Below, piece by piece: positions 16,643 through 55,032 of a stretch of 64,000 nt of DNA. The position numbers were made by a program, and so were the translations under genes. The notes under the pieces were generated by a model that worked only from the letters and a program-made list of their open reading frames with translations, did no database searches and was not told the DNA's origin. Each line of letters starts with the position of its first letter. Positions within the stretch are counted from its first letter, which is position 1. This DNA is from Proteromonas lacertae (taxonomy: Eukaryota; Sar; Bigyra; Opalinata; Proteromonadidae). The DNA lies in contig NGBS01000586.1 in the NCBI GenBank assembly GCA_002245135.1, positions 62,001 through 126,000 of the forward strand, read 5' to 3'.

Positions 16643-18434
16643 TTAATATTCATCAGCAAATGATTTATTAGGAGTACTCCCTGTAGCAAATCTCGAATTA
16701 ATTCTTGCAGGTGGTGCTCCACCTGTACTACTACTAAACATAGGTTTTTTAAATGAAAATCCACTTGTACTACTTGATGATGAAGGTGGTAATTTTGAAC
16801 CTGTGGTTCTACCATAAGATCCATAATCACTATTATAACTAGAGGTAGTTGTCTTTGGTTTAGTCGTTGAATTGACTCTATTATAAAACGAAGTATTTGC
16901 TGTTGTTGATGATGATGATGACCTTGGAGGTGTTTTAGTTGATGTATTTCTACTAGAATAACTTGATGTATATTTTGATGATGTTGATGATGATGATGAT
17001 GATGATGATATTGGTTTATTAGTTGTAGATTGTGGTGATGGATGTTTCTTTTTATAACTAATAATAGCTGAAGTTACAATAACAGTAATTACTGATGCAA
17101 CTATTAGTGTAATATATAATTGTCTTTGTTGTACTATATTACCACATTCTACTCTTCCTGATGTTAAGTCATCTTCAATAAGTGTTTTGAGTGGTACAAC
17201 AGAGTTGTATATCTTAGATAATCGATGAGGAAACCATGTATTAGATGATGAATATATCTGATAGATAGAAGCGTGGAATTCTTTTTCATAATATAATTTA
17301 ATGGAGAGTGTATAAGATCGAGATGGATGGAAATGTTCAATTAAACAAGTACACATTGATATTATACTATTTGGATATATATTAATAAATATTATACGGA
17401 TGAAACGAGAATTTATTAATTGCTAAACTATCTCCAACATAATAGAATGGTTCTCTTAATCCATAATTAATAGCATCATACTATAATATATATATATATA
17501 TAATAATATATATACTTGTATTAATAGATTATCAGGATCACATATATAATTAAATATACTAATATCAATATCAATATTGACTGGTATTTCCCAAGAATCG
17601 AGGGTATATTTCAGTATATTCCTTCCAACGGTCAAATAATAATTCAGCATTTCTCTCTGGTGTGATTGGATGGAATATGATAGTATCCATTGAAAAGTAA
17701 TCATTATCACTCATTGTAATATACTTTTGAATTGGTAAAGTATAGTGGAATATGATTAATGCATTGGATTTGTGTAAGTTTAATGATTGGATGATAGTTG
17801 GTAAGGAGGAAGTTAATGGTAAATCTTTTAATATGAAGATTGACATACCTGGACACATTGAGATGTATTTTTCTAAGATTTTTTCAATTTTGGCTTTTAA
17901 CATTAAAGGATCGTTTAGTTTTAATAATGTTGATACACTATAGATTTATATGAAATGCATAGATATGTCTTATATATATAATATACGGTAAATAAACGAA
18001 GGATTTGTATGTACTTGATCTATAATAAATGAATAATTATATTAAAATGTATACATTAATGATCTTTTGATAATATCATCCATAATAATTTGATTTGTTC
18101 CAAGTGGATCAATTGTGTATAACATTTGGCACGGACGAGGTGTTTGTCTATTGTACCATGCTGAAATTGTATTAAACATGGATTTTGTCTGGCGTGGATA
18201 GTGTGGCATCCTTTCTTGAAGAAGTCTTTCGAGTGATGTTAACGGGTGAGTTATTAGTTGACAATTTGCTGATGAACCTTCATAATCTTTCCCAATAGAG
18301 ATAATATAGTCGTCAAGCTGCTTCTCAATATCAGATGAGCTAACTACTGGTCCATTGTTGTCTATATTAAAAGAATAAGCTAAGCACAACAGTTGCACTG
18401 CAATAAAAACGATTTTGATAGTTTTCATAGACAT
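16643..18434 (-). CDS. Membrane-anchored torsin-like pseudo-ATPase B
   Basis: Signal peptide (IKIVFIAVQLLCLAYSF), lumenal torsin-like domain, one membrane span (LYITLIVASVITVIVTSAII) and a Ser-rich cytosolic tail of about 130 residues. Four short introns (18020-18054, 17938-17986, 17481-17515, 17367-17397) and one base to skip near 17590 (a GGG run) join the exons. At the P-loop position it has TIDPLGTNQ, with no GxxxxGK[TS]. The Walker B site reads CPGMSIFILKDLPLTSSLP. The segment FHPITPERNAELLFDRWKE matches its tandem paralogue upstream (18606-20238) and, more loosely, the gene at 38223. Torsins have the same arrangement with a Cys just before Walker B. Loss of ATP-binding residues suggests a partner or cofactor rather than an ATPase. 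The assignment to the torsin clade is inference from motif order. Confidence 0.6.
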
Positions 18435-18605
18435 AAATCAAGTATTACAGATAAAATGACAATTGTAATTTGAATTTTAAATATTCAAGCCTATGTCAAG
18501 CTGTTGTTGTTGTTTTTGTAAAAATTAAATAATAATCTATTTATTTGGTTGAAACAAAACAAATATCTGTTATATATAATAAAACAATATGATATAAATG
18601 TTTAA

Positions 18606-20238
18606 TTATTCATCAAGTTCTAATGATCTACTACTATCACTAGCTTGAGAGACTATTGATGGACGAGATAATGAATCCTTTCTTCTTCTAGATAATTTTG
18701 ATTTTGGATGGATTGGAGTTACACCAATTGACAATGCTCTTCCTTTTGGAGCTCTTGCTCGAGGTGATTTGGGATATACTACTTGTCCACTATATCTCCT
18801 TAAATGACTGATCTTTTTGATATTACTATTATAACTTGGAATATTCTTTTCTTCATCATCATCATCTTTCTCTTCATCTTTCTTCCAAGAGTGTAACAGA
18901 CACTTTATAAATATAATCACTAACACAACTTCAACACATAAAGCAGAGACAATTTCAAATGAAACAGAGAAGGCAGAAGTTGAAAATATGGAGATATATG
19001 AGACAATATTATCACATTCAATTTTACCAAATTTCACTTCTTCTTGTACAAGTCTTTCAAATGGACGGTCATGAGTATAAGTTTTTGAATAATATAATAT
19101 ACTATATAAATAATAATAATAATATATACATCATATTATATTCTAAATAGAATTGTCTCAATGTTGCATATACTGCATCATTTTGAACATATATATTGAG
19201 TGATAAATAGTAAGATGTTTGTGGTCTATAATGTTGAACTAAACATTCACATAATGATTTAATAGTGTGAATTAAATAAGAGATATCTTTAGAGTAATAG
19301 AATGTTTCATCTGTATCAGTATCTTTGTTTAAAAATATCATTTTATTATACTATAATTAAATATATTAAAAGAAATACTTCAACAATATGTGAATTGGGA
19401 TTTACTAAATATTCAAAGAATGATTTATCTAAATATATATTCACTTTCTGATCTAGATATCTTGGTCTATCTCCTACTGTTTCTTTCCATTGTTGTTTTA
19501 AATATTCTAAATTCTTAGCAGGTGTTAGTGGATGAAATATTAACATATCGGATGATTTTATTGATGGACTATTTGACATTGTTCTATATTTATCTAACTC
19601 AATTCGATAATTAAATATAAATATAGCCGTTTCAGGGAATGCTGATGTTTTGATTAATGCTGGTAAGGAGGAGGTTAGAGGTAATTTGTCAAATTTGAAG
19701 ATTTGGAAGTTTGGGCATAATTCTACATATTTGTCATTTATTATCTTCAAATATTTATTCTTAGTGAGTGGACCAACATTTTCTAATAAGCCAACTGGTA
19801 TTTCTCCAACTGATGTGAAATATTCATCTCTATGAATGACATATTATTATATATATACACGAAAAAATCTGTAATTAAATCACTCAATGTATCTTGATTG
19901 TATCCTGTTGGATCTAACGTCTTAATGAATAAAGGTTCATGGACCTCTGGATTTTTATACCAAGTTGATATTGAATCATTTAATGATTTGACTTGGAATG
20001 GATAATGCGAGAATTGCTCTTGTAATTGTATGAAAAGTGAAGATATTGGTTGATTTTTCATGTGGCAATTCACACTCTTATTAACAAAATCCTTTCCAAT
20101 GGATTCAATGTATTTATCAAGTCTATTTTCTATTTCTTCTTTCGGTAATTTGTCTTCCTTGGTTGCTTTAAAATCACCAAGAACTGCAACAAATAATAGA
20201 GAGAAAATAATAAGCTTTGAAGATAATTTGATAGTCAT
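18606..20238 (-). CDS. Membrane-anchored torsin-like pseudo-ATPase A
   Basis: Tandem paralogue of the gene at 16643-18434, with the same domain order: signal peptide (LIIFSLLFVAVLGDF), lumenal AAA+-like domain, a membrane span near 18930 (VSALCVEVVLVIIFIKCLL) and a basic Ser/Arg-rich cytosolic tail ending LELDE. Introns at 19830-19858 (29 nt), 19351-19378 (28 nt) and 19102-19129 (28 nt). The P-loop position is TLDPTGYNQDT, lacking Gly-Lys-Thr. Walker B reads CPNFQIFKFDKLPLTSSLP, and the sensor strand AIFIFNYRI resembles AIFIFLSN of torsins. Conserved Cys residues (SVNC near the N-terminus, IEC before the membrane) may form a lumenal disulfide. The frame is clean, so the gene looks intact. Likely in ER or nuclear-envelope membranes (inference). 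Confidence 0.62.
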
Positions 20239-20388
20239 TACTGCTTAATATTATGGATTAAATTTAAAATGAAATTAGAAATTTGAATTTGATGTAATTT
20301 ACTGTAATATTTGATGAGAATTACATTTTTGTTGAAAACACAAAAACTCTCACAAAACAACTTATTATTCACATTTAAAGAAAATTGA

Positions 20389-21516
20389 TTACTTAGTCGG
20401 TTCTTCTACTTTCTTACATCTGTGTCTCATATACCAAGAACAGTCTTTCTTGGTTATATCCTTAGAATACCACTTTTCTTCACCTTTATTCATCCTCTCA
20501 CCCAATTCTGTCACTAAACTCCTCAATTCTTTTTCAAAATTACTCTTCAAATTCATTTTTGCTAATTTATCTCTCAAATCAGTATGAATCTAAATATATA
20601 TATTATATTATATACCTTTAAACCACTATGTAATATCTTAAATGCATGTCCTCTCAACTCAGTAGGATTAGCATCATATTTAACAGCATAATCAATATAT
20701 TTCAAAAACAATTCATCTTGAGTTACTAATTTCCCATCTTTATCACATCCGTGATTACATATCGAAGGATCTTCTAATATTGCTTCACCTAACATTACAC
20801 CATCTACACCAGTATCTTTAATACAGCGATCTATATCATCATAACATTCTATTCCACCATTTGCAAAAACTGGAATTTTTAATGATTCTTTTATTCGTTT
20901 TATTACATTCCAATTACACTCACCAACTCTTTCTTTGTTTTGTTCTTTTGTTCTTCCATGGACTGTTAATAAAGAACATCCACTTTTTTCTATTAATTGA
21001 GCTAATTCTAAGGTTTTATCAAAGTCTGGAAATATTCTTATTTTACATGTTACTGGAATAGTTAAATTTAAATGTAGAGTTTCAACTATGTTTTGTATTC
21101 GCTTAAAATCATCCATTAGATATGCACCATAATGACCTTTCCTGGCTATTCCTTGTGGACAACCTAAATTAATATCAACAGCTTCACAATATTTTTCAAC
21201 CATTTTACCGGCTTTTAACATGTAATCTGCATCATCTCCTGCTAACTATAGAAATAAATGCAATTTTGTTATTATACTTGTATTATTAAAGGCCTATCTT
21301 CTTCATCTATAACAAAATTTGTAGAGAAGTATTTCGCATTTGTACACATCATTTTAGCATTAAGCATAGGAGAATAACATAAATCACAGTTAAAATCTCT
21401 TACTAAACGACGAAAACTTATATCAGACATCTCCACCTACTTTTATAACTAAAAAATAATACCATTGGTGCTAAAATAGTTTTTGGATTTCCTAATTTAG
21501 TCAAAATATCAGCCAT
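20389..21516 (-). CDS. DUS1: tRNA-dihydrouridine synthase, DUS1 type
   Basis: FMN-dependent reduction of uridine in the tRNA D-loop. It begins MADILTKLGNPKTILAPM and continues after a 26-nt intron with VEMSDISFRRLVRDF. Next come CDLCYSPMLNAKM, then QLAGDDADYM and the active-site motif DINLGCPQ with the catalytic Cys, and later FANGGIECYDD of the FMN phosphate site. Introns at 21437-21462, 21246-21277 and 20590-20615 all keep frame. The C-terminal CSWYMRHRCKK segment resembles that of DUS1 homologues. Length (about 346 residues) is slightly short for eukaryotic DUS1, lacking a long C-terminal extension. Stop TAA at 20391-20389. Confidence 0.92.
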
Positions 21517-21953
21517 TTAAGAAAAACAGACAAAAATTAATAATTTCAAAAATTATAGTCGTTTCAGTTTTAATGAATTTGTCTTTTGTGAAGTAAATAA
21601 ATACTCAACAGGTTTAAAATAATGATTAAAATCTTATAGTTTGATAAAATTTAATCGATTAAAAATACTGTTTAGAAAAAGTTAAAAAATGAAAATATTG
21701 TGAATAAATGAAATTAGAAGTTAATATGATTTTCATAGTAAAGGTTAACACTAAATTTAGAGAAATAAATATGTATGTAAAACTACAATATTCTATAATT
21801 CACATTATCTTTGCATTTTATAACTCTCATCCAACTGAAGTCTTATTAGTCTAAGTATACTACGAGATATTTAATGAAATTAATCAACCAATAAAAATGC
21901 AGCATATTAACCAATAAAATAGCAGATATTATCATTTCACTAAACTTCACAAT
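21517..21953. other. Divergent intergenic region
   Basis: About 440 bp separate the starts of DUS1 (minus) and the next gene (plus), so it should carry both promoters. It is strongly AT-rich with scattered A and T runs. I see no coding frame, RNA gene or clear repeat in it. Confidence 0.5.
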
Positions 21954-22419
21954 ATGGTTAAACAGGGAAAGAGAAAATATGGTAAATCCAATGATGCTAA
22001 ATTTAGAGAACTTTTTGGTGAATATGGACACAAGGTTAGGATATTAGCTGAAATGAGTAGGTTAAGTGAGAAACAGGTAAGAAGGAATTTGGATAAAATA
22101 GAAAAAGGTGAAACTATTGGTATAAGAGGATATGGTAAAGCTAAGAATTTCACTACTGGGATGAAGAGAGAAATTGATGTTTTGGCAAAGGATGAAAATA
22201 TCACTAGTTCATTTGAAAAAGAAGTGGAGAGTTTATCAGAATGAAAGTGAAATAGATTCTGATAATGAAATATCAGAAGGTTTAAACAATTTATCATTAT
22301 CTTATGAAGATAATCACTATGGATTTGTTAATGATGGTATTTCAGAATATCTTCCCAATCTTCCACCAATTCCTGATTTGGAATTGAGTTGCTTTGATCA
22401 TCCAACCGATTTTGCATAG
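21954..22419 (+). CDS. Small basic/acidic protein, possible helix-turn-helix, frame-broken
   Basis: Not recognised. The first 96 residues are basic and helical (MVKQGKRKYGKSNDAKFREL, then GHKVRILAEMSRLSEKQVRR), with a spacing that would fit a helix-turn-helix, followed by a Gly/Lys-rich loop. At about 22240 the frame must move by one base, after which an acidic tail continues (ESEIDSDNEISEGLNNLSL ... LPPIPDLELSCFDHP) to TAG at 22419. A DNA-binding head with an acidic tail would suit a transcription factor, but that is a guess. No intron is needed. Confidence 0.5.
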
Positions 22420-22625
22420 ATGGCAATATGCAAAACCCTTATTGTTAAGGTTATTTGAAATCATAATAGATGATTCTCGAAGAGATGATGTATGGTTTTT
22501 AATAATCTTAATAATTAGCGATTCTTATCGTAATATGTGTTTTGGGATTATGTGAGGATTAATAAATCATTCAAAAGCTGTTTTTTTACAGTAAAAAATC
22601 GTTTCTATTTCTAAAAATAGCAAAT

Positions 22626-25392
22626 ATGTCGAATTATTCGTATATTGGTGTTGATTTAGGTTCATATTACTATAAAGTTGGTAGAGTAAAGGAACCTAAT
22701 CATGTTGTGGAAATAGTGCCAAACAAACTTGATAAACGATCTTCTAGGTATTTATATGTAAGTAATGTAATAAATAGATCAGCAATAGGATTTTCAAAAG
22801 GTAAGAAATGTCCTGTAGGTCAAAAAATAGTATTTCTATATGATTTAAATTATAGCCTGCTAAAGATGTGAAAAATTCTTTAATAGATGGCAAAGATATT
22901 TTTGCAAAAGCATTTGATGGTAAAAACTTTGAAAGAATACAAAATGCTTATAAACCGTTTATTCTCTCAAAAAATCAATATAATGTGCCTATATTTACAG
23001 TATAAATTCTATTTTTTTAATTTTAGGTAAATTATTATGAAGATAGTTTGAAATATAATGGTAAAGATATATATCTAAACTATTTTTATAACATTTATGA
23101 TATGATCCAAGCAAGAGATGCTGATAGTAATACAAAGGATAGTAATAAAAATCAAAATTGGATATTAAGTGTATATTTTTATGAAATAATAATATATTGT
23201 TTAGTATCCAATTAATTACTCTAAAGAACAAAGAGATGAGTTAAAATGTTTATGTAATTTTAAAGTGGAAGAATCATCAGTTAGTTGTTGTGATATTATC
23301 GATGAAAGTACTGCTTATGCTTTATGTTATGGATATGAAAATAATACAAAAATTGAAGATACAGAGATTAATTTGTTAGTAGATATTGGATATATAAATG
23401 TAACTGTTACTTGTGCAAAATATGAAAAAGTATGAATATAATTGGTCTTTATGTAATAGGATAAATGTACTGTATTAGGAACTTCTATATCTGATGAAAT
23501 TTGTGGAAGAAATATTGATAAGTTGATGGTTGATTCAATTAAAGAAGAGATATTCAATGATAAAGATTTTAAAGTATTAAAAGACATATTTGATTATAAA
23601 CCAGATTATTTATATAAAGTGCAAAATGCTGTAATAACTGCAAAAGAAAAACTTTCAACTGATGGAAACAGTGATGTATATTCTATAAATATAAATTATA
23701 TGAAAATAGATAAAAATAGAAGTGAGTGATTTATATGATTCAGATGATTTTGAGAGTAATTATAGTAAAGATAAACTCAACAGTTTATTAATTGGTAACA
23801 ATTATAAAGAAAAAATATTCAAATTGTTAAATCAATGTTTGAAGAACAGTCATATTCGAAGTGAATATATTTCATCAATAGTAATAGCTGGTGGAACTTG
23901 CAGAATTCCATTTATTCAAGAAGCGTTGAAAGAATATTTAAATACAAAAATAGGAAGAAAAGGAGAATTGAAAAAGACTATAAATATGGATGAACATATA
24001 GCAAATGGGATATGTTATTATAGTTTGATTAAAAGTGATATATGGAAATATTCATTAGTAGTTGATAGTAAAGATTTATTTAATCCTGATTTAATGAAAA
24101 AAGAAATAATAAAACAAAAAATCAGAAATGTTTATGGAATAGTCAAATCAGAAATATCGAAGATAATGAAAAAAGAATATTTAGAAGATATTAAAGAAAT
24201 AATAAAAGAAGAGAGTTATCTAGCATTGGAAATTGTGAATAATTATGATAATTATGACAAGTTCTATTCAGCTGTGCAATATGATAAACATCTTCAAGAA
24301 GCAGATAAAAAGAGAAATGATCTAGAAACGAGTTTGTATGATTATCAACATGAAGTAGAAAAACTGAAGAATGAAGAATTAAAGAAAGAAATAATGGATT
24401 GGATTAGTAAGCAAATAGAAAAACTTCATACAGATAAAGCACTAAGAATGATGGATAAAGTATTAGAATATGAAAATGTGTTTGTTAGTGTAATTTATAA
24501 TCATCTATAGGATTTAGAAAATGAAAGGATTAATCAAAAGTATAAGGCAAGAGATATTAATGTTAAATTATGGTATAATTATTTTAACATTATTTTAATA
24601 TTGTAGTAATTGTGCGACTAAGATTCATTCTGATGATTCAAATTATCAAGAACTATTATCTGATATGGAAAGTATGAATTTAGAATCATTACCAATTAAT
24701 CAAGTAGCAAATACAGGTTCATCTAAATTAAAACTATCAGAATTAATCAAAGATTACAAAAGTGAAATGTATATATTTATATTTTATTCATGTTTAGATC
24801 AAAATGGGAAAGATTATTAAAAGAAATGCCAAAAATCAATGATTATGATGTGAAGAATGATTTAAAGAATAAGAAGAGTTTAGAAGAAAGAAATAATGTA
24901 GTGAATGATTCAATATCATTAGATGATTTGAAAAGTTCAATTGACGATACTTATAAGTTATTTACTGATATATTAAGTAATACAATTACAGCAATGGATA
25001 AAACTATGTATTAATAATATTTATGTAAAATGTAGAAATGAAATCAAGGAAGATTACAAAGACGTTGATGTTAATAAAGATACATTATTCATAAGTATTG
25101 AAGGATTGAAGGAGACATTCAATAAAAGGAATGAAACTTCAGCATATTTAGCTTATATAATAGATAAATACAATGTATATAATAAAATGTTATGAATATT
25201 ATTTAGATGATTATTATTACAAATGAAAGTATTATTTCATCAAAGAAGAAGAGTATGAGTATATTTGGATGGCTGAGAAGAAACAATTCTAAAATATTAC
25301 CTGAAGGTGAAAATAGTAAGAGTGGTAAAAAAGTAGTGATAAAAGAAGATGTTACATTTACTTTGCCTTCTTCAAATGAATATAGTAAATAA
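22626..25392 (+). CDS. Divergent Hsp70/Hsp110-family protein
   Basis: About 830 residues once nine short introns (22830-22855, 23000-23026, 23171-23204, 23430-23459, 24484-24510, 24573-24606, 24769-24797, 25008-25035, 25175-25206) are removed. Actin-fold ATPase signatures: phosphate-1 loop IGVDLGSYYYKVG; DIIDESTAYALCYGYE, equivalent to IINEPTAAALAYG; phosphate-2 LLVDIGYINVTVTC, lacking the usual GGGT; adenosine motif IVIAGGTCRIPFIQEALK. A helical, lysine-rich C-terminal region follows. There is no signal peptide and no KDEL or EEVD terminus, so it is more like a cytosolic Hsp110-type nucleotide-exchange factor than BiP. One extra A in a run near 23713 breaks the frame; removing it gives KIEVSDLYDSDDF, the expected family sequence. 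The loss of GGGT suggests weak or no ATP hydrolysis. Confidence 0.75.
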
Positions 25393-25550
25393 CTAGCATT
25401 AAAAAATTATTACTGCCTATTACATATTTATTATATAAATTGCCTTCTTTGTGTTTTGTGAAATAAAAGTTCCATAAAACGAATATATTTTTGAAATAAA
25501 AAATAAAAAAATTATTCGTTATTTTTAGTTTCTTTTTTAAAAATTAGAAA

Positions 25551-27096
25551 ATGAAGTTATTGTTTTTGTGTTTAATAGTTTCTTTAGATTATTCTTTTGC
25601 TTTGTTACTCAAAGATAAACTTTCAACTAGTGATAGTTGGAGAGTTTTAGAGAGATTTTGTTTTCACAAAGAAAAAGAAAAACCATCTATGCTAGAGTAT
25701 AGTCATTATAATATTCGAATAGAGGAGAGATATATCCAAAGTATAATAACACAATCAAACCTTCTATTTTGTTATTCTCTACATCTTATAATCCAGATTA
25801 TATAGAAGGATCGTCACAATCATGTCTGTCGAAGTTTTCAAAAGCCTCCTACAGATATACTTACGATGAAAGAGATACTGTGGTTCAAATAAGAATAAAC
25901 TTTACGCATTCTGATTATGAGTGTTATTATATCGTACTATCAGCGTGTGACACGACAACAGACTCTATATATAATCAAGGGGAGATTAATGTAGATTATA
26001 GGCTGCAATTACTGAATGGAGGTAATTCATGGCATAAATTACTGTCTGCAGATGAAAAGGGGTTATTGGAAATATGTTTAATATTTTAGTATAAAATATA
26101 TTTTCTTATTAAATAGTGTAATTCAAGTAATATTATGTATATTAATAAGAAAAACTGAATTGGCATTATTAAAAATAGACAAATTCCATTATACTGTACA
26201 AATGTTAAAATGGAGTATTGATATTCTGTTTATAACATATTTGGTGTTTGTTTTATATTATCTATACTATGGAGATTCTGGTACAAAATTAACATTTCTA
26301 AGGGTGTTATTTAACATTGGAATAAGTAGTGTTGAAATTATTTTAGTGTTGTTATTAATACTATTAGCAAAAGGATGGACTATAACATGTAGAAAAATAT
26401 CACATCTAGTATTTTTATAATGTTATTTATAATATATTGAAATAGGGAAGAATGAAAATATGTATTTATTTCTGTATTTACACTTGGTTAACTATTTATT
26501 GTATATTATGGAGAGAAGCAGTACAAAGTGTATATGATACAATCACATTATTTGATAATGCACCTGGTTATCTACTAATAGTAGTGAAAGGATTAGTTAT
26601 TATGTGGTTTTGTTATGCAATTTATATTACACTAAGTAAAACGAAAACAAAAAGACATTTTTATTATAAATTCTTCTTATTTTCGATTATTTGGTTATTA
26701 TTTCATTTTATATTGCCTTTATGTATTGATCATGCTAATGAAAGGAAGAAATATACTATTTATTATACTTTAATATTTGTTTTTACAACCCTAATACAGT
26801 TGTTATTGTCAATACTGTATTATCCATGTAGATGTAATAAGTCATTCCCTTTTCATCAGAAAACAGCAGATATGAGAAATATTGATGAACAAGTAGAATA
26901 TACAGTAAGTGGTAAAGCTCGTATATATTTCTTTTATATATTTTTCATTTAAATAGTAAATTCTTGCAGATTATCTAAATTATTTGAAAGACAATCCAAT
27001 ATATTGTCTACAATGATTCATGAGATGACATCTGAATATAGAGCTACTTTCCGTACAGTTCAGTATGGTAAACAAGGTGGTAAAGAGAGTATATAG
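25551..27096 (+). CDS. GPR180/TMEM145-like seven-transmembrane protein (GOST-type)
   Basis: Signal peptide (MKLLFLCLIVSLDYSFALLL), then a lumenal beta-rich domain starting KDKLSTSDSWRVLERFCF, as in GPR180/TMEM145, then about seven membrane spans. The strongest signature is LLLILLAKGWTITCRKIS, the characteristic loop after span 3 in this family. Further spans follow, and a basic C-terminal tail ends at TAG 27094-27096. Introns at 26089-26116, 26409-26445 and 26921-26956. A single base is missing or extra between about 25690 and 25730, after which the lumenal domain continues in another frame. The family is linked to Golgi/endosomal sorting and, in animals, to signalling. Ligand and role here are unknown. 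Confidence 0.75.
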
Positions 27097-27392
27097 ATGT
27101 ATTTATATAATTATTAGAATTAAATAGAACAATTAGCGATTTCTTTTAGGACATTATCATTAATGATGAATGTCTTTTTTTCATGTGTATTTATTAAATT
27201 ATTTTTTTTATTTATGCTTGATTATTTGATGGTTAAAACAACAATACATTTTAATACATTAATACAACTGTATAATTGTTTTGTTTCTGTTATAATGAAT
27301 ATCGAAAAGAGGAAGAAAGATGCTTATATAAAAGCTAGAGCATATCAAAACTTTAAGTATTATACATACTTTTAAATGATAGAAATTCCGAA

Positions 27393-28968
27393 ATGGCCAA
27401 GAAAAGCTCTCCAATCAAATCTCGTTATCCTTTAGATAATTTTAGCTTTTCTATACCTTTAAAGCCATTTTCTGGAAGTCTACCAACAGGTTATGAAAAG
27501 AAAATAACAAGAGAATATGCAACAAAGTATCTAGATCATTTAGGAGCATTACCAACAGAAGATAATATTCAAGCTGTACTTGCTAATCATAATTTAGATG
27601 AATGTACACTTTGTGCTGGTTCATTTCAAGGAGGTAGTTTAGAAGATGCAATATTCATTACTACTTCACCAGTAAGGAAGATACAACTAGAATACAAAAA
27701 GAATTTACCTCCAGTTCAATCATCTAAAGAAATTGAAACATCTCCAATTAAATCTCGTCCTTCTTCCCAAGCATATTCCTCAAAACCAACAACAACGCAT
27801 GGACAGAGAATTGAATCTAATTTACTATCATTTCAGAAGATAAAAGAAAGACATTTATATCCATATTCTTCAAAATATAAGAAATTACCATCTCTTCTAT
27901 CATCATTACCATTATCATCTTCATCCTCTCAAATATCATTATCATCAAATGAACAAATAGAGAAATATGCATTGTATATATATATATATATAATTTATTA
28001 TAGGTTAAAGTTTCCAAGTATTGATATAGTATATGAAAATGATGGAAGTATAAAAGAGAACATATACTCGGTTGGAATGAATGAATTATCAGAACCATTG
28101 AAAATAGATCAATATATAATAGATGACTGTATTAAACAGTTTATTAAATCAATTCCAAAGAGATATTTAGATGAACATCTATCTCAAACAGAAAGACTTG
28201 CTTTAAAGAATTTATTAAGTTCAAAAGAAGTATGTCAATTAATATATAATTTATCATATTATTTGTATATATTATTTATATTTAATATTATTATAATTAG
28301 ATTTCATTTATTATATTTGTCATTTGAATGGAAACTATCCGTTGATGAACCATCCAATACAACTCTTTATAACGATATAAATATATTATTCGACAAACTC
28401 ATCGATAAATGTAGAAACAAGAGAAAACATACAACAATATTTCTACCATTTATTATTCTATGCATTAAAGTTTCCATTGAAGAGATATTTACTAGGAAAT
28501 ATCCTGGTTGGTTTAAGAATAATACTATATATAGCTCACAAACATTAGATATCTTCGCGTCTGAGATAACTAACATATTAGATCCTCATGGTTTGTATGA
28601 TAGAATTGCTTATTTTGAATCAGATGCTGATGCGATGAGAGCAATTTCTTCACATAAAACAACAAGTAATTCCATTAACAAATTTACTGTTTCTCCATTT
28701 ATTACTAAGACAATGAAGGATAGTGATTCGAGTATTATTAGGAAAATGAAAATAGTTGGAAAATGGGATAAATCTGTACAGTCTGAAAGTGCAGAGAATT
28801 TGAATGTTAATCTGAAGAAAGATGTTATTACAAGTAAAAGAAAGAGTATTGTTATTATGTTTATTGTTTTTTTATTTAATAGAATTACTACATCAGATTG
28901 ATGATGAGACTATAATTGACACTAATTTTGCTGCTTCTTTAAAACCTCGTCATAGTAAGAAATTGTAA
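27393..28968 (+). CDS. Unrecognised intracellular protein, about 490 residues
   Basis: I do not recognise this protein. It starts MAKKSSPIKSRYPLDNFSF and has a Ser/Pro-rich linker (residues about 100-190). A helical region follows (IDDCIKQFIKSIPKRYLDEH, VSIEEIFTRKYPGWFKNN), and it ends SLKPRHSKKL. There is no signal peptide or membrane span. Three introns (27974-28003, 28265-28300, 28846-28882) fit the local pattern. The first two are multiples of three without stops, so the unspliced frame reads through and could mislead annotation. The S-P-I-K-S-R motif occurs twice (near residues 6 and 118). The upstream neighbour ends 296 bp away; that gap holds only a weak 70-codon frame. Confidence 0.6.
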
Positions 28969-29076
28969 AAACATATTCGTTCTTTTGTAAATATTTATAT
29001 TTATTCCAAACAAACATTTGATGTATATGTAAATAGTAATAAGATTTGTTAATTAGTTTGTTTTTTTTGTTCTTTT

Positions 29077-29769
29077 TTAAATTGCAAATGGTTTTAACAT
29101 TATTGTATCAGGATTAAAATCATCATCATCAACTTTCTTTGACTTAACAACAGGATTATTAACAGGAGGTGTAATTACAAAAGCTTCAACATATTGTTGT
29201 TGTTGTAACTGTTCTTCTTCACTTTGTTGGTTGGAATATGCATTGAAATATGTTCTATCTATCTTCTTTCCTTTAGCAGCATCATGAATATCAACTGGAT
29301 CAATAAATAACCATAATCCTGTGAAACACACAACACCTAATGCTAAAGCACCAGGTACTTTCTCAATATCACTAGAATATACAGTAAATTGCATATGATT
29401 GGAAGTTTCTAACAATCCAATTGGTTGAAATGACATGATCAAAGAGTTGATGACTCTATCAAATCCAATGGTTAGAATTGTTTTACACCATTTATACCCA
29501 CCACAAGTTGATCTTCCATAGCTAGTTTCACCAACTGCATAATGTTTAATTTTCACAACATAGTAGTTTATAGACTTTCTAACAATGAAATAGTTGAATA
29601 TGGAATTATTCAATGTGAGATTATCATTTCTTTCTAATTCAGTATCATCTCTTACTTCTTTTCGATTATATCCAACAATAATATCTTTCCTTTCTGGCCA
29701 ATCTACTCCATTCCTAAACAATGCAATGATTGTTTCACGCACAGCATCGACTAAATTGATTTTTCTCAT
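29077..29769 (-). CDS. Unrecognised single-exon protein with one membrane span
   Basis: 230 residues, ATG at 29769, stop TAA at 29079-29077. The N-terminal half is mixed helix and strand with a small cysteine cluster (STCGGYKWCKT). The segment VPGALALGVVCFTGLWLFI (about residues 150-168) looks like a membrane span. The tail is Gln-rich, then has Pro/Val and an acidic KKVDDDDFNPD patch. No intron. I cannot assign a family; the tail-side location of the span suggests a membrane-bound adaptor, but this is speculation. Confidence 0.6.
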   Translation of the reverse strand: MRKINLVDAVRETIIALFRNGVDWPERKDIIVGYNRKEVRDDTELERNDNLTLNNSIFNYFIVRKSINYYVVKIKHYAVGETSYGRSTCGGYKWCKTILTIGFDRVINSLIMSFQPIGLLETSNHMQFTVYSSDIEKVPGALALGVVCFTGLWLFIDPVDIHDAAKGKKIDRTYFNAYSNQQSEEEQLQQQQYVEAFVITPPVNNPVVKSKKVDDDDFNPDTIMLKPFAI

Positions 29770-30063
29770 TTCAAATGTTGATTGTTGGTAGTGTTTTTTT
29801 GGAACTATTCCGCCAAATAAAATATTTTAACCAATAAAATTTCAGTTGTTCAACATTTAAATTTTTTATAACTATAATCCATTTAATTAATTCTATACAA
29901 TATTTCTGTATATTATCTTCTCATTAATAATATTATTTCTATTTATCATAATATTAACTGTATACTAATCGAAAAAATTCTACAAACAGCAAAAATGTTA
30001 TACATATAATGAAATAAACAGAAAAATAATAATTCCGGCTCGATAAAGCTTGGAAATACAAAA

Positions 30064-31489
30064 ATGAATTGGGAAGTATTTAACAAAGCTACACTTATCG
30101 AAATTGTCAAAACATTATCTAAGAATGTAGATGAAAGTATAAAAGCTATTTATATTTGTTGAACAGATATTACTAATGAAATTTTTCTATCTTTTTCATC
30201 AAAACTATCACCATCGTGTATAAAATTTTCATTATAATACTTTTTATTAGCAATTGCGAATTCACCTAAGAAATCAAAATCTGAAAAATCAAAAAGACAG
30301 TTTGATATGTCAAAATTCCATCAGAGACATGTAGCATTAAAGATATTTTACGATGGAAGAAAATATGATGGATTTGCATCTCAGAATGAAACAGATAATA
30401 CAGTTGAAGCAAAACTATTTCATGCATTGACTAAAAGTTGCTTAATATCTAATCGTGAATCTTCTCATTACTCTCGTTGTGGTAGAACAGATAAGGGAGT
30501 TAGTGCCAGTTGTCAAACTATAGGAATCTATATAAGAACAAATCTAAAGAAAGGTTGTGAATTTGTTGATGATAATAAGATAGAAGATGATGGTAAAGAA
30601 ATTGAAGAATTGGATTATTGTAAAGTATAATTATTTAATAATAATATATATATTCATCATAATAGATATTGAATAGTATATTACCCAATGATATTCGAAT
30701 ACTTGGATGGTGTCCAGTCAAATTAGATTTTAATGCAAGATTTGGAACTAAATCAAGAACTTACAGATATTATTTTGTAAGAAGAAATTTAGATATAAAC
30801 ATAATGTTAGAAAGTTCAAAGAAATATATTGGTGAACATGATTTTAGACACTTTTGCAAAATAGATTTAGGAAATGTTACTAATTTTGTTAGAACAATTA
30901 TTCGCACTGATTTTGTGAAGATGACTGATGGAGATAGAGATGATGAAGGTAAAGAAATTTGGTATTTTGAAATTGAAGGTCAAGCATTTTTATGGCATCA
31001 AGTGAGATATTTAGTTGCAATTTTGTTTTTAATTGGATCACATTTAGAAGAACCAACTGTATTTATTGTTTTTTTATGCTTATATTTTAGTTGATTGATG
31101 AATTGTTAGATATAAAAAGTAATCCTTCAATTTGTGATTACAATATGGCTTTAGAATATCCATTATGTTTATGGAAATGTAATTATCCCGATGATTTAGA
31201 ATTTACAATTAGTGATGAGTCTTATAAGAATTTAATTACTTCTTTAGAGAACAAATGGGAAGAATTGACTCTTCAATTATCACAATATACTGATTTAATG
31301 AAAGAAATAAAGAAATTGAAAAGTTTTGGTGTTGTTTTACCTTGCTCTTATAAAGATGTGAGATATAATTCATATAAACCATTGAAATCTAGACCCAAAA
31401 GGAGTATTTAAATAGTTATTGTTATATAATGAATAGAATGTTATGAAGAAAGATTGGAAGAATTAAATAAGAAGAGAAAAATAGAGTAA
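30064..31489 (+). CDS. PUS3: tRNA pseudouridine synthase PUS3/DEG1 (TruA family)
   Basis: Makes pseudouridine at positions 38/39 of the tRNA anticodon arm. The N-terminal leader (MNWEVFNKATLIEIVKTLSK) leads into FHQRHVALKIFYDGRKYDGF, then the catalytic motif SRCGRTDKGVSA with its nucleophilic Asp, NSILPNDIRILGW, and the late motif GQAFLWHQVRYLVAILF. The C-terminal YEERLEELNKKRK is typical of DEG1. Five introns: 30137-30166, 30218-30250, 30625-30665, 31059-31090 and 31404-31436. The first two flank a 51-nt exon that would be missed without splicing. Stop TAA at 31487. Confidence 0.93.
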
Positions 31490-31632
31490 ATGATAATTAT
31501 AGGTGATATATAATATATTTTTTTATTTTCATATCTTTTTTTATTGAAGAAAACACGAAATCCAAAATTTAAAGAAATTATATTCGTTTTAATATATTTG
31601 GCTTGATTAGTCATATTTCTTTTTTTGGATTT

Positions 31633-34600
31633 ATGAAGACTGTAGACCAAATTTTAGATGAATTGGAAGAAGATGAGGAATTTGATAGATCATATTGCGA
31701 TATAGACACTTTATTAAGGATGTCTTTTGACGAGTTAGAGTATTGTTAATCTGTTGATTTGTTAGTTTATCTGAATATGATAAATACATAGATCCAAATT
31801 TAGCTTATTATGAAAGCACTCCATATGAGTTGATAGAGAAGTTGATCAACTTTTTAGAAGCAACAAGACCAAAAACACCAGATGTATATTATTTATAGAT
31901 AATCTATGTTTTTAATAGACATTATCAGCATCAGATACAGCAGATGATAGTTATGCAGGTAGATCTGAATCTGTTTCTTATGACTCAATGACCAATATGT
32001 TTGATGATTATACCAATCAAATAAAAGCTGTAGAAAAGGTGATTAACAAAGTAATGTGTCCCAAATACCCAGATTTATACAATCCACTCACAAATCTTGA
32101 TCAATCCAATACACATACAAAATCAGCAACAAGAATACAAGTCATGATGGATAATAGATTCCAAAAATGTGCAACAGCAGAATCAGGATTATTACAGTTA
32201 AACAAAATGGAAAATATTTCAAGTCAATTATTACTAAATTCACAAAATATAAAGAATGGTCCAGGATATCCAACCTCATTATGTTGTTTATCAAATATAA
32301 TAGCAATAGGTACAAACTCATCAATGATATTGTTGTATGATAACAAGGAAAATCCAATCACAGTTTTAGGCTCGAGTCCAAGACTCGAACCAATATGGAG
32401 CAGTTACATCGATTTGTGGGAATGAAAAGAATCATATTCTATATGTTGGCCATTTATCTGGTAAAATAAACATATGGGATTATAATAAAAAACAATTGAA
32501 CAAAACGGTCGATGGAATTTTCAAATCTCCAGTGATATACTTAAAGACATGGAGTAATGGGTTTATATCTTGTGATAGTAATGGAAAATGTGTTTATTGT
32601 TCAGTTACAAAGAAATTATTAATGACTGCAGTAGATACAACCGTAATTCCTTCAAAATATGGTCCAATATTATCAGCATCAATATATAACAACAATGATA
32701 ATAATAATAGTAAAGAAGGAGAAAGCAAAGAAGATTTCTCCTTAATAGCAATAGCAACCTATGAGAAAGTATTTATTTTATCGTTATTGGATTTGAATAA
32801 GGTTTTATCTGAATGGAATGCTCCTGATTCGTGTCATGCAATTAGTTCAGTGAGTTGGTACAAAATAAGAAGTCAAGGGTTTGAACTAATACCAGTATTA
32901 ACATGTTTAATTACTTGGGGAAATCATCTGCAATTATTATCTGTTCAATATAAAGATAATAAACATAATATTGAATTAATAAATCATATTAAATTTGAAT
33001 ATACTATTTATACACAAAGACTGTTTAATGATCATACAATTGTGTATTTAACATCAGAAAAATCAATAATTATATTTGATTTAATAGCATTAGATGAAAT
33101 AGATGTAATTAGTGTAAAAGACTTGAAATTTGTTTATTCTATGTTAAAGAACTTGGAGAATAACAAAGATAATTATGTCAATTATGAAAATACAATTGGT
33201 TGTATTTCTGATAGTTTATATCTATTATGTTTAACATCGCTAAGTCATTTATACACTGTAAATATCAAAACAAGAATTCAAAATTGTATAGAGAAAAAAG
33301 ATTGGTTAATTGGATTTAATATTATATTAGATTATTATAAAACAAACCCTGATAATTCTATGTTGGATATATTTTTACAATATTTCGATTTGTATTTAGA
33401 TTATTCATTTAATTCTAAACAAATACAAGAGAATGGAGGTAGTATCAATTATTTTAAAATAATAGCTGGTGTTTGTTGTGAATATAGTATTGGAATAAGA
33501 CAATCTTATTTATTGACTCAATTAGCTTATAAAAGATTTGAAGAAGTAAATCAAACGAATATATATATTCAAATATTATCAAGTTATATTGTCTGTTTAA
33601 TAGATATTACTATTCCACCACCAATATTGACTCAAATCATTGAATATTTCTGTGATCACGATTTACCTGATTTAGCTCAAGAATGGTTATTTAGATTAGA
33701 TATTAATGTATATGATAGAGAAGAAGCGTTTGAAGTTGTTACAAACCATCAATTACTATTAGCTTTAATCAATTTATCATGTAAACACTATCACTCATAT
33801 AATATCGCATTAGAGAAGTTATTTTTAATATTGAATAATGTCCATACAACAGATTTAGTTAAAACTCAAATACAATCATTGATAATTACTATATTATCTT
33901 ATAGCTGTGATAATTATCCATTTCCTAATGATATTGATTGTGTTATGAGTAATAATAATCTCTCTCAAGTAATTGATGTGATATTTAAAAAAGATTGCCC
34001 AGAAAACCCTGAACCCTGTTATCGATTATGTTATATATTGCCTATTAATTTGACATTATTATTGAAAGTGATTCAAATATGTTATAATCGAGGTAATGAT
34101 TTAACAACAGAACTTAAAATATCCAATATTTGTACTATCTTAGGTGAATTTTTATTCAATGATAGTTCATATATAGAATTAGATTCATCTTATGACTCTT
34201 CTTATTTTATTCATTATTATACATTCCTTATTAAAATGTTAATTGATCATGTTGATTGTGTATTACCCAATAATCTAACTACCTCTTGTATTGTCTATTT
34301 ATTACAAGCAACGAAAGGAAATATATCATTATACAGTCCTTATACAAATGAAGAATGTTTATGTAAAATCATAGATAATGTTGATATAAATCACTATGAT
34401 CCAGTTCAAACATTATATGCAATCCAAGAAATAGGATTGAAACAACCTGAATTAAGAATATTGAAGAAAATGAATAGATATGGAGATGTAATTAAGCTAC
34501 TATTAGATGATGCTGAAGAGAGAAATTCAACGAAAGAAGTGTTTAGTTATTTAACTGATTGTATTGAACAACAAACATCATCTTCTGCATCTACAAGTGA

Positions 34601-35795
34601 ATCTGCTGATAATACTACTACTATTAATGCTGAATCTAATTCAAATTCTTCTTCTTCTTCTTCTTCTTCTCTTGAGTTGTATAATTCAATTCAACCATTC
34701 ATTACACCACTTGTAAAGAAGAATATTCATCAAACTATCAGATTATTACTACAAATCCCAGAAACTGATTTCAAAATAATCATAGCACATATGAAATTAG
34801 ATAGCATCTATTACCTCTTTATAAGGGAATTATTAACCTATCAACAAGATACTGAATATATGTTGCAACTTCAATCAAAAGGTGTTGAAATACCTGAAGA
34901 TATTGAACTTCAATATTTCAAAGAATTATGTATGTATTGTCCATCTGAAGTATTAAATTTCGCTCAGAAGCATTTAGATTTACCAATTAATGTCTGTATT
35001 AAATACTGTGAAGATTATAATATCATTGATTGTACTGCTTTCTTATATGAAAGAGTTGGTAATTCTCAAGGAGCAATTGATTTATTAATAAGAGGATTTA
35101 ATGGATTATCAGAAGAAATGGTGAATATATTACAATCTTCATCATTATTAGAAGATGCGAAGAAAGTAGAAGTGATTAATCATTCATTTACATTGTATTT
35201 GTCCGTTTCACAAGATTTGTGTGTCAAACATAGTAAATTATGTATTCAAACAAATGAAGATTATTACCAAGGTTATTGGTTTTCTATATTTGATGTAATC
35301 ATTGAAACACAGAGAAGAATAAAGAAATTAACTTCGTCTTTATTCCAACCAGTTTTAAGCGAAGGACAAAAATGTTTAAATCAAATCTCAACTGATGTTA
35401 TGAATTATGTAAATGTAATGAGTCAATATGTTTCATTAACATTAATAGTTGATAGAATAGTAACTAAACACAAATCTGATACATTTGGTGGATTTAGAGC
35501 AACTATTTTAGATTTAATTGACACTTCTATATTTGAAACAAATCTTTTAACAATTTGCAATAAACTATTTGCTGATGATAATTGGAGAAGTGTAAGATAC
35601 TTGAAGTATGCAAGAACTAGATCATTACCAGCTCCAAATCCAATATGTCCAATATGTCACATTAATATTAAATATAATGAGAAGATTCATATTGTAGTAT
35701 TTAGCTGTGGACATGCTTATCATTCTAATTGTTTGAATGATTCAAAACAATGTACAGTTTGTTATGGTCAAAGAAGAAGAATTAATAGAAAATAA
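31633..35795 (+). CDS. VPS8: CORVET tethering subunit VPS8
   Basis: Endosomal Rab5-effector tether. About 1,350 residues. The acidic N-terminus (ILDELEEDEEF) is followed by a WD40-type propeller (PTSLCCLSNIIAIGTNSSMI, then SGKINIWDYNKKQLNK), a long alpha-solenoid, and a C-terminal RING-type zinc finger (CPICHINIKYNEK ... FSCGHAYHSNCLND ... CTVC). WFSIFDVIIETQRR is the solenoid/RING junction. Introns at 31740-31765 and 31884-31918; the rest is one exon. One extra C near 32387 breaks the frame. Deleting it yields EQYGAVTSICGNEKNHILYV, matching the family, so the gene is judged intact. A Ser run at about 34650 is coded by a TCT microsatellite. Confidence 0.9.
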
Positions 35796-35852
35796 ATAAA
35801 TAATATATATTTTTATTGTTTTATTATTGTTTTTTTAATTAATTTTTATATT

Positions 35853-36638
35853 TTACTCATTTACTTTTCTTTTTTTATTTGCAGGAGGTGATGAAGGATT
35901 TAACGAACCTTTTGTATTATTATTATTATTATTATTACAATTTACAGAATTATTTGACGAAATATCTTCATCTATAGTTGTTGTACTTGACGAAGATTCT
36001 GGTGAATTGTGAGAGGTTAGAGGTGAAACGATATATGTAGGTCCAAGATGTCCTAAAGGTATTACACCAGTGGTATAAACCGGCTTGATGTCTGGAGGAG
36101 AAGGTGGAATTACTATTCCTGATAATTTGGGAATTATGGAATGATATTTATTGACTTTGGGTGTACGTTTCTATTTTTAAATATACAAATATCATATATA
36201 CGACATTCTTTGGCCTATCTGGACAAATTTTGATGTGAAAAGATATAGTAGCTTCCGTGGCTAAATGATTAGGATTATAAGGACATTTCACAGACTAGTA
36301 ATATTAAAATAATCTTAATATGATATATAAGGAAATAATTATTAAATATATATATACTGGAGAACCTTTTGGAATATCAACTTTTTCTAGTTTTTCAAAA
36401 GAGCTGGGAGATGACTATAAATAATATTAAATAATGAAAGAAAGTAATTATACAAAATCATCTTCCTTTGGTTCTACTACTATGCTTAATTTTCTTTTAA
36501 GACGTTTTTCAACAGGTCTCTATGCATTAATCAATTAATATACTTCTTTTGGGGTAAAATGTGGACCTTCTGATTTTTCTCTATTTAAAAAAGCATTATG
36601 TAAAATGTATACTCAGGAGATGTTGGATCTTCACTCAT
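35853..36638 (-). CDS. Small CHHC zinc-finger protein (U11-48K/GTSF1-like)
   Basis: Six exons that only become visible when five introns are removed: 36581-36612, 36520-36543 (24 nt), 36415-36453, 36295-36357 and 36171-36201. The protein starts MSEDPTSPEEEKSEGP. After about 65 residues it has one CHHC finger, CPYNPNHLATEATISFHIKIC (C-x5-H ... H-x3-C), then KRTPKVNKYHSIIPKL, a Ser/Thr-rich tail with an Asn run from a trinucleotide repeat, and a basic end KKRKVNE that may be a nuclear localisation signal. CHHC fingers occur in the U11-48K protein that contacts U12-type 5' splice sites, in TRM13, and in GTSF1-type piRNA proteins; the sequence here does not decide between them. The gene lies tail-to-tail with VPS8, 58 bp away. 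Confidence 0.72.
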
Positions 36639-36816
36639 GATCTATTAGTCTCATATACTTAACAAGAATAAAGGACAAATAATTTTGCGAATCAAACTAA
36701 AAATTACACTTGAGCGCATTAAGCGTTTTATTTTTTATATTTTAAATAGAAACTTAAGAATAAATCAATTTAGAGTCTTTTTAGTAATTTGAATAATAGG
36801 ATATTTAAATAACAAG

Positions 36817-38115
36817 ATGAGTGCAGGACGTCCTCATAAACTAGCACCAATCAATGGTGATGGAACCCAAGTCAAAAGAATAAAATCATCGTTGCCAGTA
36901 AAGATTAAATCAAACAACGATGACATTTTAGATGAAAGTGTGTCAAAGAAAACATTACCACCCATAAATGCTTCACAAGCAGACAAACAGAAATTATGTT
37001 TAGAAATATTAACATCAGGATATGTTCAAGCATATGTTGATTTCTTTTATTTAACCAATAGACCTGATCCTCATCCAGATCCAACTAACGATGAGGAATT
37101 AGAAATTATCGTTCCACCAGAAGATTTAATAAGAATAAAGGATTTATTAACAGAAGCAGAATCTTCTAGAAGATCGGGTGATACTAAAGAAGTATTTAGA
37201 TGTTTTGGTACATTAGCTGAATATTATCAAGATCAAAAAGATTTAAAAACTTCCATATATTTCTATGAAAAATGTCTTGAACTAGCCAAATTGACAAACG
37301 ATGTTCAAGCTGAAATGGAATCTACTCACCATCTAGGTATTGCCTATGATAAGAGTGGTGATGAAGAAGGATCCATTGCATTACATGAACAGCACTTAGC
37401 ATTAGCTACAGAAGTTAACGATAAAAGCCACATTGTTTTAGCAAATGAATCTTTATATCGATTATATGAAACAAAAGCAATAAGATTTGAAAGTGAAGAG
37501 AATTTAGATCAAGCGCTCATTAATTATACCAAATGTCTAAGTTGTGCATCTGCAGCAGGTAATGAAGAATGGGAAATGGTATGTAATTATAGAATAGGTA
37601 AAACATTGATATTATTAAACAGATGTGAAGAGTCATTATCTTATTTAACTAACTATTATCATATTAGCAGAAGAATGAAGAATCTCAAAGCACAAGGTCA
37701 AGCCTGCTCGATATTAGGTGCTGCATATCAAGCTTTAGGTAAACAAGATCTAGCTATTAAGCATTTGAAGAGTTTCTTAGAATTGGCTGAAGATTTGAAA
37801 GATTTAAATGCAATGAGTGAAGCTTGTTATAGTTTGGGTGTTATATATAATAATAAAGGAGAATTTTCAACTGCTGTACAATTCTTCACTAGAAACTTTG
37901 AATTGGTGAAGAGCATTATTCACGATTTACATGGTGATATGAGTTTATATTCAAATGCAAGAGTTGCTTTGGGTATGGCTCAAGGAAACTATGATATGAA
38001 TGCTTATATTAGTGCTATTAATACAGATTATTGGAAGTTGTTGAGATGGAAGATTTCTAGAATTCCACTTGTAGATAGAAAAACACCTGATAATGATGAA
38101 TATGGACCTCTTTAA
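36817..38115 (+). CDS. TTC29: TTC29-like tetratricopeptide protein
   Basis: 432 residues in a single exon. The disordered basic N-terminus (MSAGRPHKLAPINGDGTQ) leads to the segment LEILTSGYVQAYVDFFYL, seen at the start of TTC29. Six to seven TPR repeats follow (for example HHLGIAYDKSGDEEGSIALH, CSILGAAYQALGKQDLAIKH and CYSLGVIYNNKGEFSTAVQF). TTC29 is needed for axonemal dynein assembly or transport, so its presence says that the organism builds motile cilia or flagella. The start lies 178 bp from the divergently transcribed CHHC gene, so the two probably share a promoter region. Confidence 0.82.
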   Translation: MSAGRPHKLAPINGDGTQVKRIKSSLPVKIKSNNDDILDESVSKKTLPPINASQADKQKLCLEILTSGYVQAYVDFFYLTNRPDPHPDPTNDEELEIIVPPEDLIRIKDLLTEAESSRRSGDTKEVFRCFGTLAEYYQDQKDLKTSIYFYEKCLELAKLTNDVQAEMESTHHLGIAYDKSGDEEGSIALHEQHLALATEVNDKSHIVLANESLYRLYETKAIRFESEENLDQALINYTKCLSCASAAGNEEWEMVCNYRIGKTLILLNRCEESLSYLTNYYHISRRMKNLKAQGQACSILGAAYQALGKQDLAIKHLKSFLELAEDLKDLNAMSEACYSLGVIYNNKGEFSTAVQFFTRNFELVKSIIHDLHGDMSLYSNARVALGMAQGNYDMNAYISAINTDYWKLLRWKISRIPLVDRKTPDNDEYGPL

Positions 38116-38222
38116 AATTGTTTTTATTATTTATTTACTTTTTATATTGTTATTCTGTTGGATTTAAATTGAAATACATTTCTAGTGTATTGAAGAGTGT
38201 ATTTTAGTGTATTAATATAAAA

Positions 38223-39315
38223 ATGAAAATTCTTCTCTTTATATGTTTATTCGTGTGTATCTTTTCCTTTAATTTAGATGATTTAAAGACGTGTATTATA
38301 AATATTCTTTTATTAATAGCATTTAAAGATGCTTTTGATAATGTGAAGTGTTTTCTCACATATCAGGAATATGCACCAAGAAAAATAAAAGAAAATCTAC
38401 AAAAAGAACTACTTGTGCATGATGAAGTTAGACAAAGTCTGATTAGAAGAATTTCATATTATGTAAACCTCCATTCGTATAAAATACATTCATTATTATC
38501 ATAATAGACCATCTGAAATTCTTAAAGTAAGTGTATATGGTTTATCGAAGACAGGAAAGACATTTACTTCAGAATTAATTATCAAATCAATATTCAAGCA
38601 AAATAGTCCAGGATATATAGTCTACAACATACCTTCAGATAATATATCACTTCAAAAACTAAAAACAATTTTAGAAGAATCTTTATTGAAAAGGATGAAA
38701 TTATGTCATGATGTCTTATTATTGGTAGTTGATGGCTTGACAAGTAAATATAAAGACCTTCTCGAAATGATTTCAATATCTGAAATGAGTGAAACAAAGA
38801 TAATAATACTGTTTTTATACACAATTTCAAATGATGAATATAATCAAATAAACAACACTAAAAATAGAAATTATAATTTTCTATTATATCATCCTTATTA
38901 TCCTGAAGATGTTAGAAATATACTGACTTATAGATGGAATGAATATTTATTAAATGAAAAGAGTCATTATAATTTAATTGATATAAAAATAGATGAATCA
39001 TTTTTTGAATTTATAGCTAAATCTACAACAAGGATCATTGAATATTATCAAGATGATTATTCACAGAATGTATTTGAAATAGATACAAAGATAATTAAAT
39101 CGATAGATAAGGTTTGCTCTTGTTTATTGAAGAATTTACCAATTCATTACTCCAAATTCTCTAAACTACAGATATCTTATGAAAATGAGTTTATTGCTCA
39201 ATTGTATAATAGTGTTGAAGATGAATATTCAGTTATGAAATCTAAAGAACCTATTGAAAATGTATTATCCAATATTTTATCAACAAATGTCATTGAATGT
39301 GATGTATTTAATTAG
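38223..39315 (+). CDS. Soluble torsin-like AAA+ ATPase with intact P-loop
   Basis: Third member of the torsin-like set. Signal peptide (MKILLFICLFVCIFSFN), introns at 38293-38319 and 38477-38507, then the Walker A motif VYGLSKTGKTFTSEL (GxxxxGKT). Walker B-like LCHDVLLLVVDGL is preceded by a Cys as in torsins; sensor-1-like KIIILFLYTISN follows, then LLYHPYYPEDVRNILTYRW, which aligns with FHPLTPAKNLEYLKQQW of the anchored paralogues at 16643-20238. The protein ends IECDVFN, stopping exactly where the paralogues go into their membrane span, so it should be soluble in the lumen. The catalytic Glu after the Walker B Asp is Gly here, so hydrolysis is uncertain. No retention signal seen. Confidence 0.62.
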
Positions 39316-44895: not shown

Positions 44896-45124
44896 TCACA
44901 ATTTAATTATTATTATCATTTTATTATATCCATGATATTATACTTACTATTAATATTGTTTTTTTTTGATTTAATGAGATAGAAATAAGGAATTTCATAT
45001 ATGGAGAATTTTTGAAATTTTTAAAAAATACAATACAACCATTAATACACTGTATTAATTGAAATTTTTGTTATTTACTCATATTGTCAAATGAGTAATC
45101 CCTGTTATATTTTCTACTTGGGTT

Positions 45125-49373: not shown

Positions 49374-49575
49374 ATATACAATGCTATTATTATTATTATT
49401 ATACTGAATTTGAAATGTTTTTGTTGATATTCACATATATCATCTTCTGTAGTAAGTTTATGTTGATTTAGAATACTTATTGAGAAAAGAGAATAAAAAA
49501 CAAAAAACACTCTAAAACGGCTAGTTTCTACAGTTATTTTTCTTTTTTAATTCCAAAAGCGAAGCACTCAATAGA

Positions 49576-53238: not shown

Positions 53239-53488
53239 AAAAGAAATTTGTCTCTCTTTTCTTTATTATATAAATTATATGATTATATTGTTAAATTTGT
53301 TTTTCTTTAATAAAATTGAACGATTATATTCTATATTATTTGCTGTATATCTTATTATGCCAATGATGTAATGATGAAAGTTAAATGCCATTTTAAAGAG
53401 GGAGCATTTTCAAGAAAACAAATTGAAACACAAAAACACATTTTCGAACCAAGCTTTTCAAATCCAAATTATTATTTAGATTTACTCC

Positions 53489-54997: not shown

Positions 54998-55032
<35 letters not shown>

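Follow-up and report, generated by a model that had tools for sequence, protein, structure and literature searches.

In a 64,000-nucleotide stretch of the Proteromonas lacertae assembly GCA_002245135.1 (contig NGBS01000586.1, positions 62,001 to 126,000 of the forward strand; hereafter the window), three genes, A, B and C, encode related proteins of which only that of C carries a P-loop. We tentatively read them, with somewhat less than even confidence, as a divergent family of the torsin clade of AAA+ proteins in which A and B, anchored and dead, would dock ATP-bound C on the membrane. The three genes lie where a preliminary description of this DNA had placed them, A and B on the minus strand and C on the plus strand:

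Gene C, 38223..39315, plus strand: P-loop-bearing torsin-like protein of 353 amino acids (aa); single intron 38477-38507.
Gene B, 18606..20238, minus strand: P-loop-less paralogue of 515 aa with a C-terminal span and tail; introns 19858-19830, 19378-19351 and 19129-19102.
Gene A, 16643..18434, minus strand: P-loop-less paralogue with a C-terminal span and a Ser-rich tail; one frame change at about 17570-17600.
Introns of gene A (n=4), minus strand: 18054-18020, 17986-17938, 17515-17481 and 17397-17367.

From sequence comparison we consider it firm that A, B and C form one family, homologous along their lumenal part. Aligned with hhalign, the C family (C with its relatives P0001-P0003, see below) matched A and B with a probability of 98.3 and an E-value of 2.2e-14 over 307 columns. 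Profile hidden Markov models (HMMs) were run against a control set made up of the six members of the family, 2,000 shuffled sequences (500 from each of A, B, C and P0001) and 109 open reading frames (ORFs) of the window, of at least 80 aa and with those longer than 2,500 nt excluded. The C-family HMM recovered A at 3.2e-17 and B at 3.9e-11, the best shuffle reaching 1.3e-3, and the A/B HMM recovered the ORF of the second exon of C at 1.1e-12 and P0001-P0003 at about 1e-11, with none of the 2,000 shuffles at E ≤ 10. The single gene family proposed in the preliminary description was thus borne out by hhalign and by HMM cross-matches far beyond the shuffles, and the outcome named there as refuting, three unrelated proteins, did not occur. 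Chance similarity among the three was ruled out by the same cross-matches, judged against shuffles and window ORFs.

Identities over aligned columns were 139/407 between A and B, 74/348 between A and C and 79/342 between B and C. Five Cys columns were common to the trio; four of them occurred in all six sequences when P0001-P0003 were included, the fifth falling outside these relatives. All three proteins have the Cys just before Walker B and close the lumenal domain with IEC/VEC, as previously described. In six-frame searches of the species' own genome (50.2 Mb) at E ≤ 1, C matched only itself, and B only itself and A; these searches ignored introns and scored just 9 (C) and 8 (B) candidates, and weak exons may be missed.

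Outside this genome, searches of about 5.8 billion proteins recovered six relatives. Three of them (P0001-P0003) are of C type, with 58-63% identity to C, two (P0004 and P0005) are of B type, with 71 and 66% identity to B, and the A-type P0006 is a fragment of 91 aa. A follow-up profile search for more relatives, which scored just the candidates sharing most words, returned only the same three. Since relatives of all three types exist elsewhere, the split into A, B and C types probably predates this species.

By direct test C is torsin-like in sequence, and A and B are tied to torsins only via C. In a scan of 24,736 Pfam families, with HMMER filters that discard most matches above about 0.1, C matched a single family at E ≤ 10, Torsin (PF06309; 29.5 bits against a cut-off of 27, E 8.7e-7). 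Torsin was also matched above cut-off by P0001 (31.3 bits) and P0002 (27.5 bits) and gave no match with P0003, which begins downstream of the P-loop. Sub-cut-off matches were to Elong_Iki1 for P0001 (0.0066, in its C-terminal part) and to AAA_22 for P0002 (0.049). Searched against the PDB as a single sequence, C found TorsinA (0.18) and, more weakly, a helicase loader (1.2), and a profile of C and its relatives found TorsinA alone, at 0.026. When A and B were added, the six-sequence profile matched TorsinA at E 0.002 over profile positions 52-170, three Torsin-1A sequences being the sole matches at E ≤ 10 among 177,635 PDB sequences; the two profiles differ in length (302 vs 353 positions), and the gain in E does not come from adding A and B alone. 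In the six-sequence comparison, the Cys before Walker B fell on a Cys of TorsinA. The torsin link of C is good but distant, and the Pfam and PDB matches confirmed the earlier description of C as a torsin-like P-loop member.

When the own genome was searched with the Pfam Torsin family, nothing was found at E ≤ 0.001 and C itself was missed too, presumably because its match spans the intron; this null result argues against a conventional single-exon torsin. A profile of the small domain found collybistin alone in the PDB, at 0.42, and an NCBIfam scan of two proteins returned no family.

The nucleotide-binding motifs divided the trio as the preliminary description had stated, GLSKTGKT being confined to C:

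Walker A motif GLSKTGKT of C, 38539..38562, plus strand: aligned with GWTGTGKN of TorsinA.
Walker B motif VVDG of C, 38725..38736, plus strand: Asp present, catalytic Glu absent.
DPTGYNQ of B, 19894..19914, minus strand: at the Walker A position.
DPLGTNQ of A, 18090..18110, minus strand: at the Walker A position.

GLSKTGKT was identical in C, P0001 and P0002, the three C-type sequences covering the site, and in none of them did we find the torsin Walker A form GXXXXGKN (PMC7175109). At the position of the catalytic Glu of Walker B, all four C-type sequences have Gly or Ser (D-G or D-S) where TorsinA has DE. The sensor II motif GCK (Gly-Cys-Lys), located near Cys280 in torsins (PMC4999309), was present in 0/6 family sequences. 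C resembles animal torsins such as TorsinA in its N-terminal hydrophobic segment, its torsin-type N-terminal half and the Cys before Walker B, but differs from them in having GKT instead of GKN and neither the Walker B Glu nor GCK, and in running about 75 residues past the part that, on visual comparison, we matched to the small domain of torsins. Other differences from animal torsins are seen in A and B, which have no P-loop and a C-terminal anchor; downstream of the Walker B position they have LPLTSSLP in common. The helix region that follows sensor 1 contains a Lys in 5/5 A/B-type sequences (A, B, P0004-P0006), at a position where 4/4 C-type sequences (C, P0001-P0003) have Glu, and no Arg there was common to A and B. 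The position of this Lys, which we take to be near the usual site of AAA+ finger residues, is a possible contact or finger position.

All three proteins begin with a stretch of hydrophobic residues (in C with a mean of 2.19 over 19 residues, in the others of 1.98 and 1.92), which may be the signal peptides previously assigned to them. A strong C-terminal span followed by a tail was present in A and B alone, again as described:

Predicted membrane span of B, 18897..18953, minus strand: Kyte-Doolittle mean 2.73 over 19 residues.
Predicted membrane span of A, 17057..17113, minus strand: Kyte-Doolittle mean 2.46 over 19 residues.

Past the span, the tail is Ser/Thr-rich in A and basic in B, and B has an additional weak hydrophobic segment immediately before its span. 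A and B are thus type I by prediction, with the anchor after the lumenal domain, at the end opposite to that of LAP1 and LULL1, which are type II membrane proteins (PMC5425593). C, called "soluble" in the preliminary description, has no strong C-terminal span, but besides its first hydrophobic segment it has a weaker one at residues 23-41 (mean 1.41, little more than the 1.2-1.4 of core segments), which leaves that word unsupported. The weaker segment is reminiscent of a hydrophobic region in TorsinA (PMC4999309).

In the mechanism that we propose, the family would probably be sited in the lumen of the endoplasmic reticulum (ER) or nuclear envelope. C would bind ATP via its P-loop, with hydrolysis probably poor or nil. 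A and B, members of the same family that would have lost the nucleotide-binding loop rather than never had one, would carry a type I anchor and a cytosolic or nucleoplasmic tail and would dock ATP-bound C on the membrane through side-by-side contacts of the AAA+ type. In this way an assembly in the lumen would be linked to the binding partners of the two tails, which differ from each other.

Several observations weigh against this reading. A and B matched none of the Pfam families at E ≤ 10, and a PDB search with the A+B profile alone found no torsin, so that the profile comparison suggested in the preliminary description came out in favour of a torsin relationship directly for C and only through C for A and B. 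Beyond the torsin-like region, C itself had no match above any cut-off. P0004-P0006 begin downstream of the P-loop site, and the A/B-type form of this site is therefore visible in A and B alone. AlphaFold models of P0001 were poor (pLDDT, the predicted local distance difference test, 50.3 with 4 rows and 54.5 with 8 rows), and Foldseek ranked Skd3/CLPB first, in matches that took in roughly the entire model with the beta part at its C-terminal end, and listed no torsin among the best 50 of 995 matches. These models support AAA+ at most. Finally, localisation is predicted from hydropathy, and direct contact among A, B and C is something that we infer.

It is possible, but we think unlikely, that the whole trio consists of pseudo-AAA+ scaffolds and that there is no cycle, ATP being bound to the P-loop of C as a structural ligand only. 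This would agree with the lack of the catalytic Glu and GCK in C and of Walker A in A and B; against it, C has a canonical Walker A, which does not vary among the three C-type sequences that cover it.

The preliminary description had proposed a division of labour analogous to that of torsins and LAP1/LULL1. In such a model C would be the active ATPase, and A and B would activate it in the manner of LAP1/LULL1 by contributing a finger residue in trans. One part of this proposal, a single family with P-loop-less anchored members, was retained. The other part, an active ATPase with its activators, we now consider improbable: C has no GKN, the Walker B Glu is absent in 4/4 C-type sequences and GCK in all six family sequences, and A and B have no Arg in common after sensor 1, even though both are anchored and devoid of a P-loop and the conserved Lys of the A/B-type sequences could be the residue in question. 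Moreover, the alignment of A and B with C extends across the small-domain region, a part that LULL1 lacks (PMC4999309). We prefer docking over activation because C is without the residues needed for normal hydrolysis.

Least probable, in our view, is a separate ER-targeted family derived from HSP100/ClpB, resembling torsins by convergence in the ER, since sequence searches in Pfam and the PDB yielded Torsin and no HSP100 family, notwithstanding the absence of the torsin residues GKN and GCK and the first Foldseek matches of the poor P0001 model (Skd3/CLPB). An FHP motif before the small domain resembles ClpB. Skd3/CLPB and ClpB act as unfoldases in mitochondria or the cytosol and have pore loops.

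Among the known systems closest to A and B are LAP1 and LULL1, which are likewise membrane proteins with an AAA+-related lumenal domain devoid of nucleotide motifs. A and B, unlike these, can be recognised as paralogues of C, which has the P-loop. As relatives of LAP1 by sequence, A and B were rejected for want of any Pfam family at E ≤ 10; Pfam includes a LAP1 model. The type II topology is not the one predicted for A and B, whose strong span follows the lumenal domain, and LULL1 has no small domain (PMC4999309), whereas A and B align with C past the FHP motif, a region whose identity as small domain presumes the AAA+ assignment.

The preliminary description had held torsins to be mostly animal proteins. 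They have been said to be absent from lower eukaryotes or restricted to multicellular eukaryotes (review PMC7175109, research paper PMC6646356) and termed an "animal-specific subfamily" (PMC4210606). Protist torsins are nevertheless not new, kinetoplastids having two paralogous torsin subfamilies with intact ATPase sites (PMC10903960). These kinetoplastid torsins, with ERIKA, have in common with the present trio that they are homologues of torsins in a protist and divide into paralogous subfamilies, of which one carries an ER retention signal; they differ in that the ATPase site is reported to be intact in both subfamilies, and we found no anchored P-loop-less member described in the available portion of that paper. 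The present family joins them in weighing against an animal-only origin (PMC10903960). In the titles, abstracts and passages of open-licence papers covered by our searches, no anchored torsin paralogues lacking the P-loop were described.

The trio suggests that the arrangement of a torsin with an anchored partner can arise within a single gene family, and a P-loop member accompanied by two anchored P-loop-less members is a case for testing the origin of the pairing between torsins and degenerate partners. We would go further only with considerable doubt, proposing that a protist torsin-like gene was duplicated into nucleotide-free partners independently of LAP1/LULL1 and with the anchor at the opposite end, and that C acts as an ATP-bound clamp under the control of its dead paralogues. 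If true, pairing with a degenerate anchored AAA+ partner would be a recurrent solution in the ER lumen.

The gene models contain eight GT-AG introns (one in C, three in B and four in A) of 28-49 nt with a pooled A+T content of 87%, in a window of 73.9% A+T. The frames of a neighbouring M24 peptidase gene are joined by a 47-nt intron of the same type. After splicing, one frame change was left in the third coding exon of gene A, at about 17570-17600, and no intron of the trio's type accounts for it: three GT-AG removals could restore the frame, but their A+T content is 61-69% compared with 87% in the trio introns, and they would cut out conserved segments of the family. As it is one of eight frame changes picked out in the window, of both signs, we treat it as a probable assembly error and disfavour programmed +1 frameshifting as its cause.

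These eight frame changes, chosen by eye and without an intron of the trio's type, are located on the minus strand at 11836, 13026-13060, 15224 and 17570-17600 and on the plus strand at 32370-32425, 42403-42410, 50691-50731 and 51433-51476. Five are +1 and three -1, and some fall in the conserved M24 peptidase, Acyl_transf_3 and VPS8 genes; that of the M24 peptidase is, we assume, the sole -1 case situated at a well-known conserved motif. They are probably single-base assembly errors or mutations. In a brute-force check of GT-AG removals of 20-80 nt, frame-joining ones existed at all eight places (3, 10, 2, 12, 5, 4, 3 and 3), those listed, at most eight per place, having 50-77% A+T; at 15224 and 11836 an intron may be the cause. 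At the VPS8 frame change, positions 32372-32388 form a 17-base inverted repeat (two 7-base arms and a 3-base loop) that is G+C-rich relative to the 26% G+C of the window.

The multi-exon gene run at 40258-56660 (plus strand) is possibly a tandem array of secreted proteins; none of the seven ORFs scanned there had a Pfam match above cut-off, and DUF7320 appeared weakly, at 0.0054. The window also holds VPS8 and Xaa-Pro aminopeptidase genes, an HSP70-like ORF at 23710-24510 (plus strand), which matched Pfam HSP70 with 49.7 bits across about 100 residues, and, at 650-11203 (plus strand), an open frame of 3,517 codons that to the eye looks repetitive and coiled-coil-like. Immediately upstream of gene C, at 36793-38115 (plus strand), lies a gene for a TTC29-like tetratricopeptide repeat (TPR) protein, whose best PDB match was an axonemal inner dynein subunit and the next TTC29; this gene suggests that the organism probably builds cilia or flagella.

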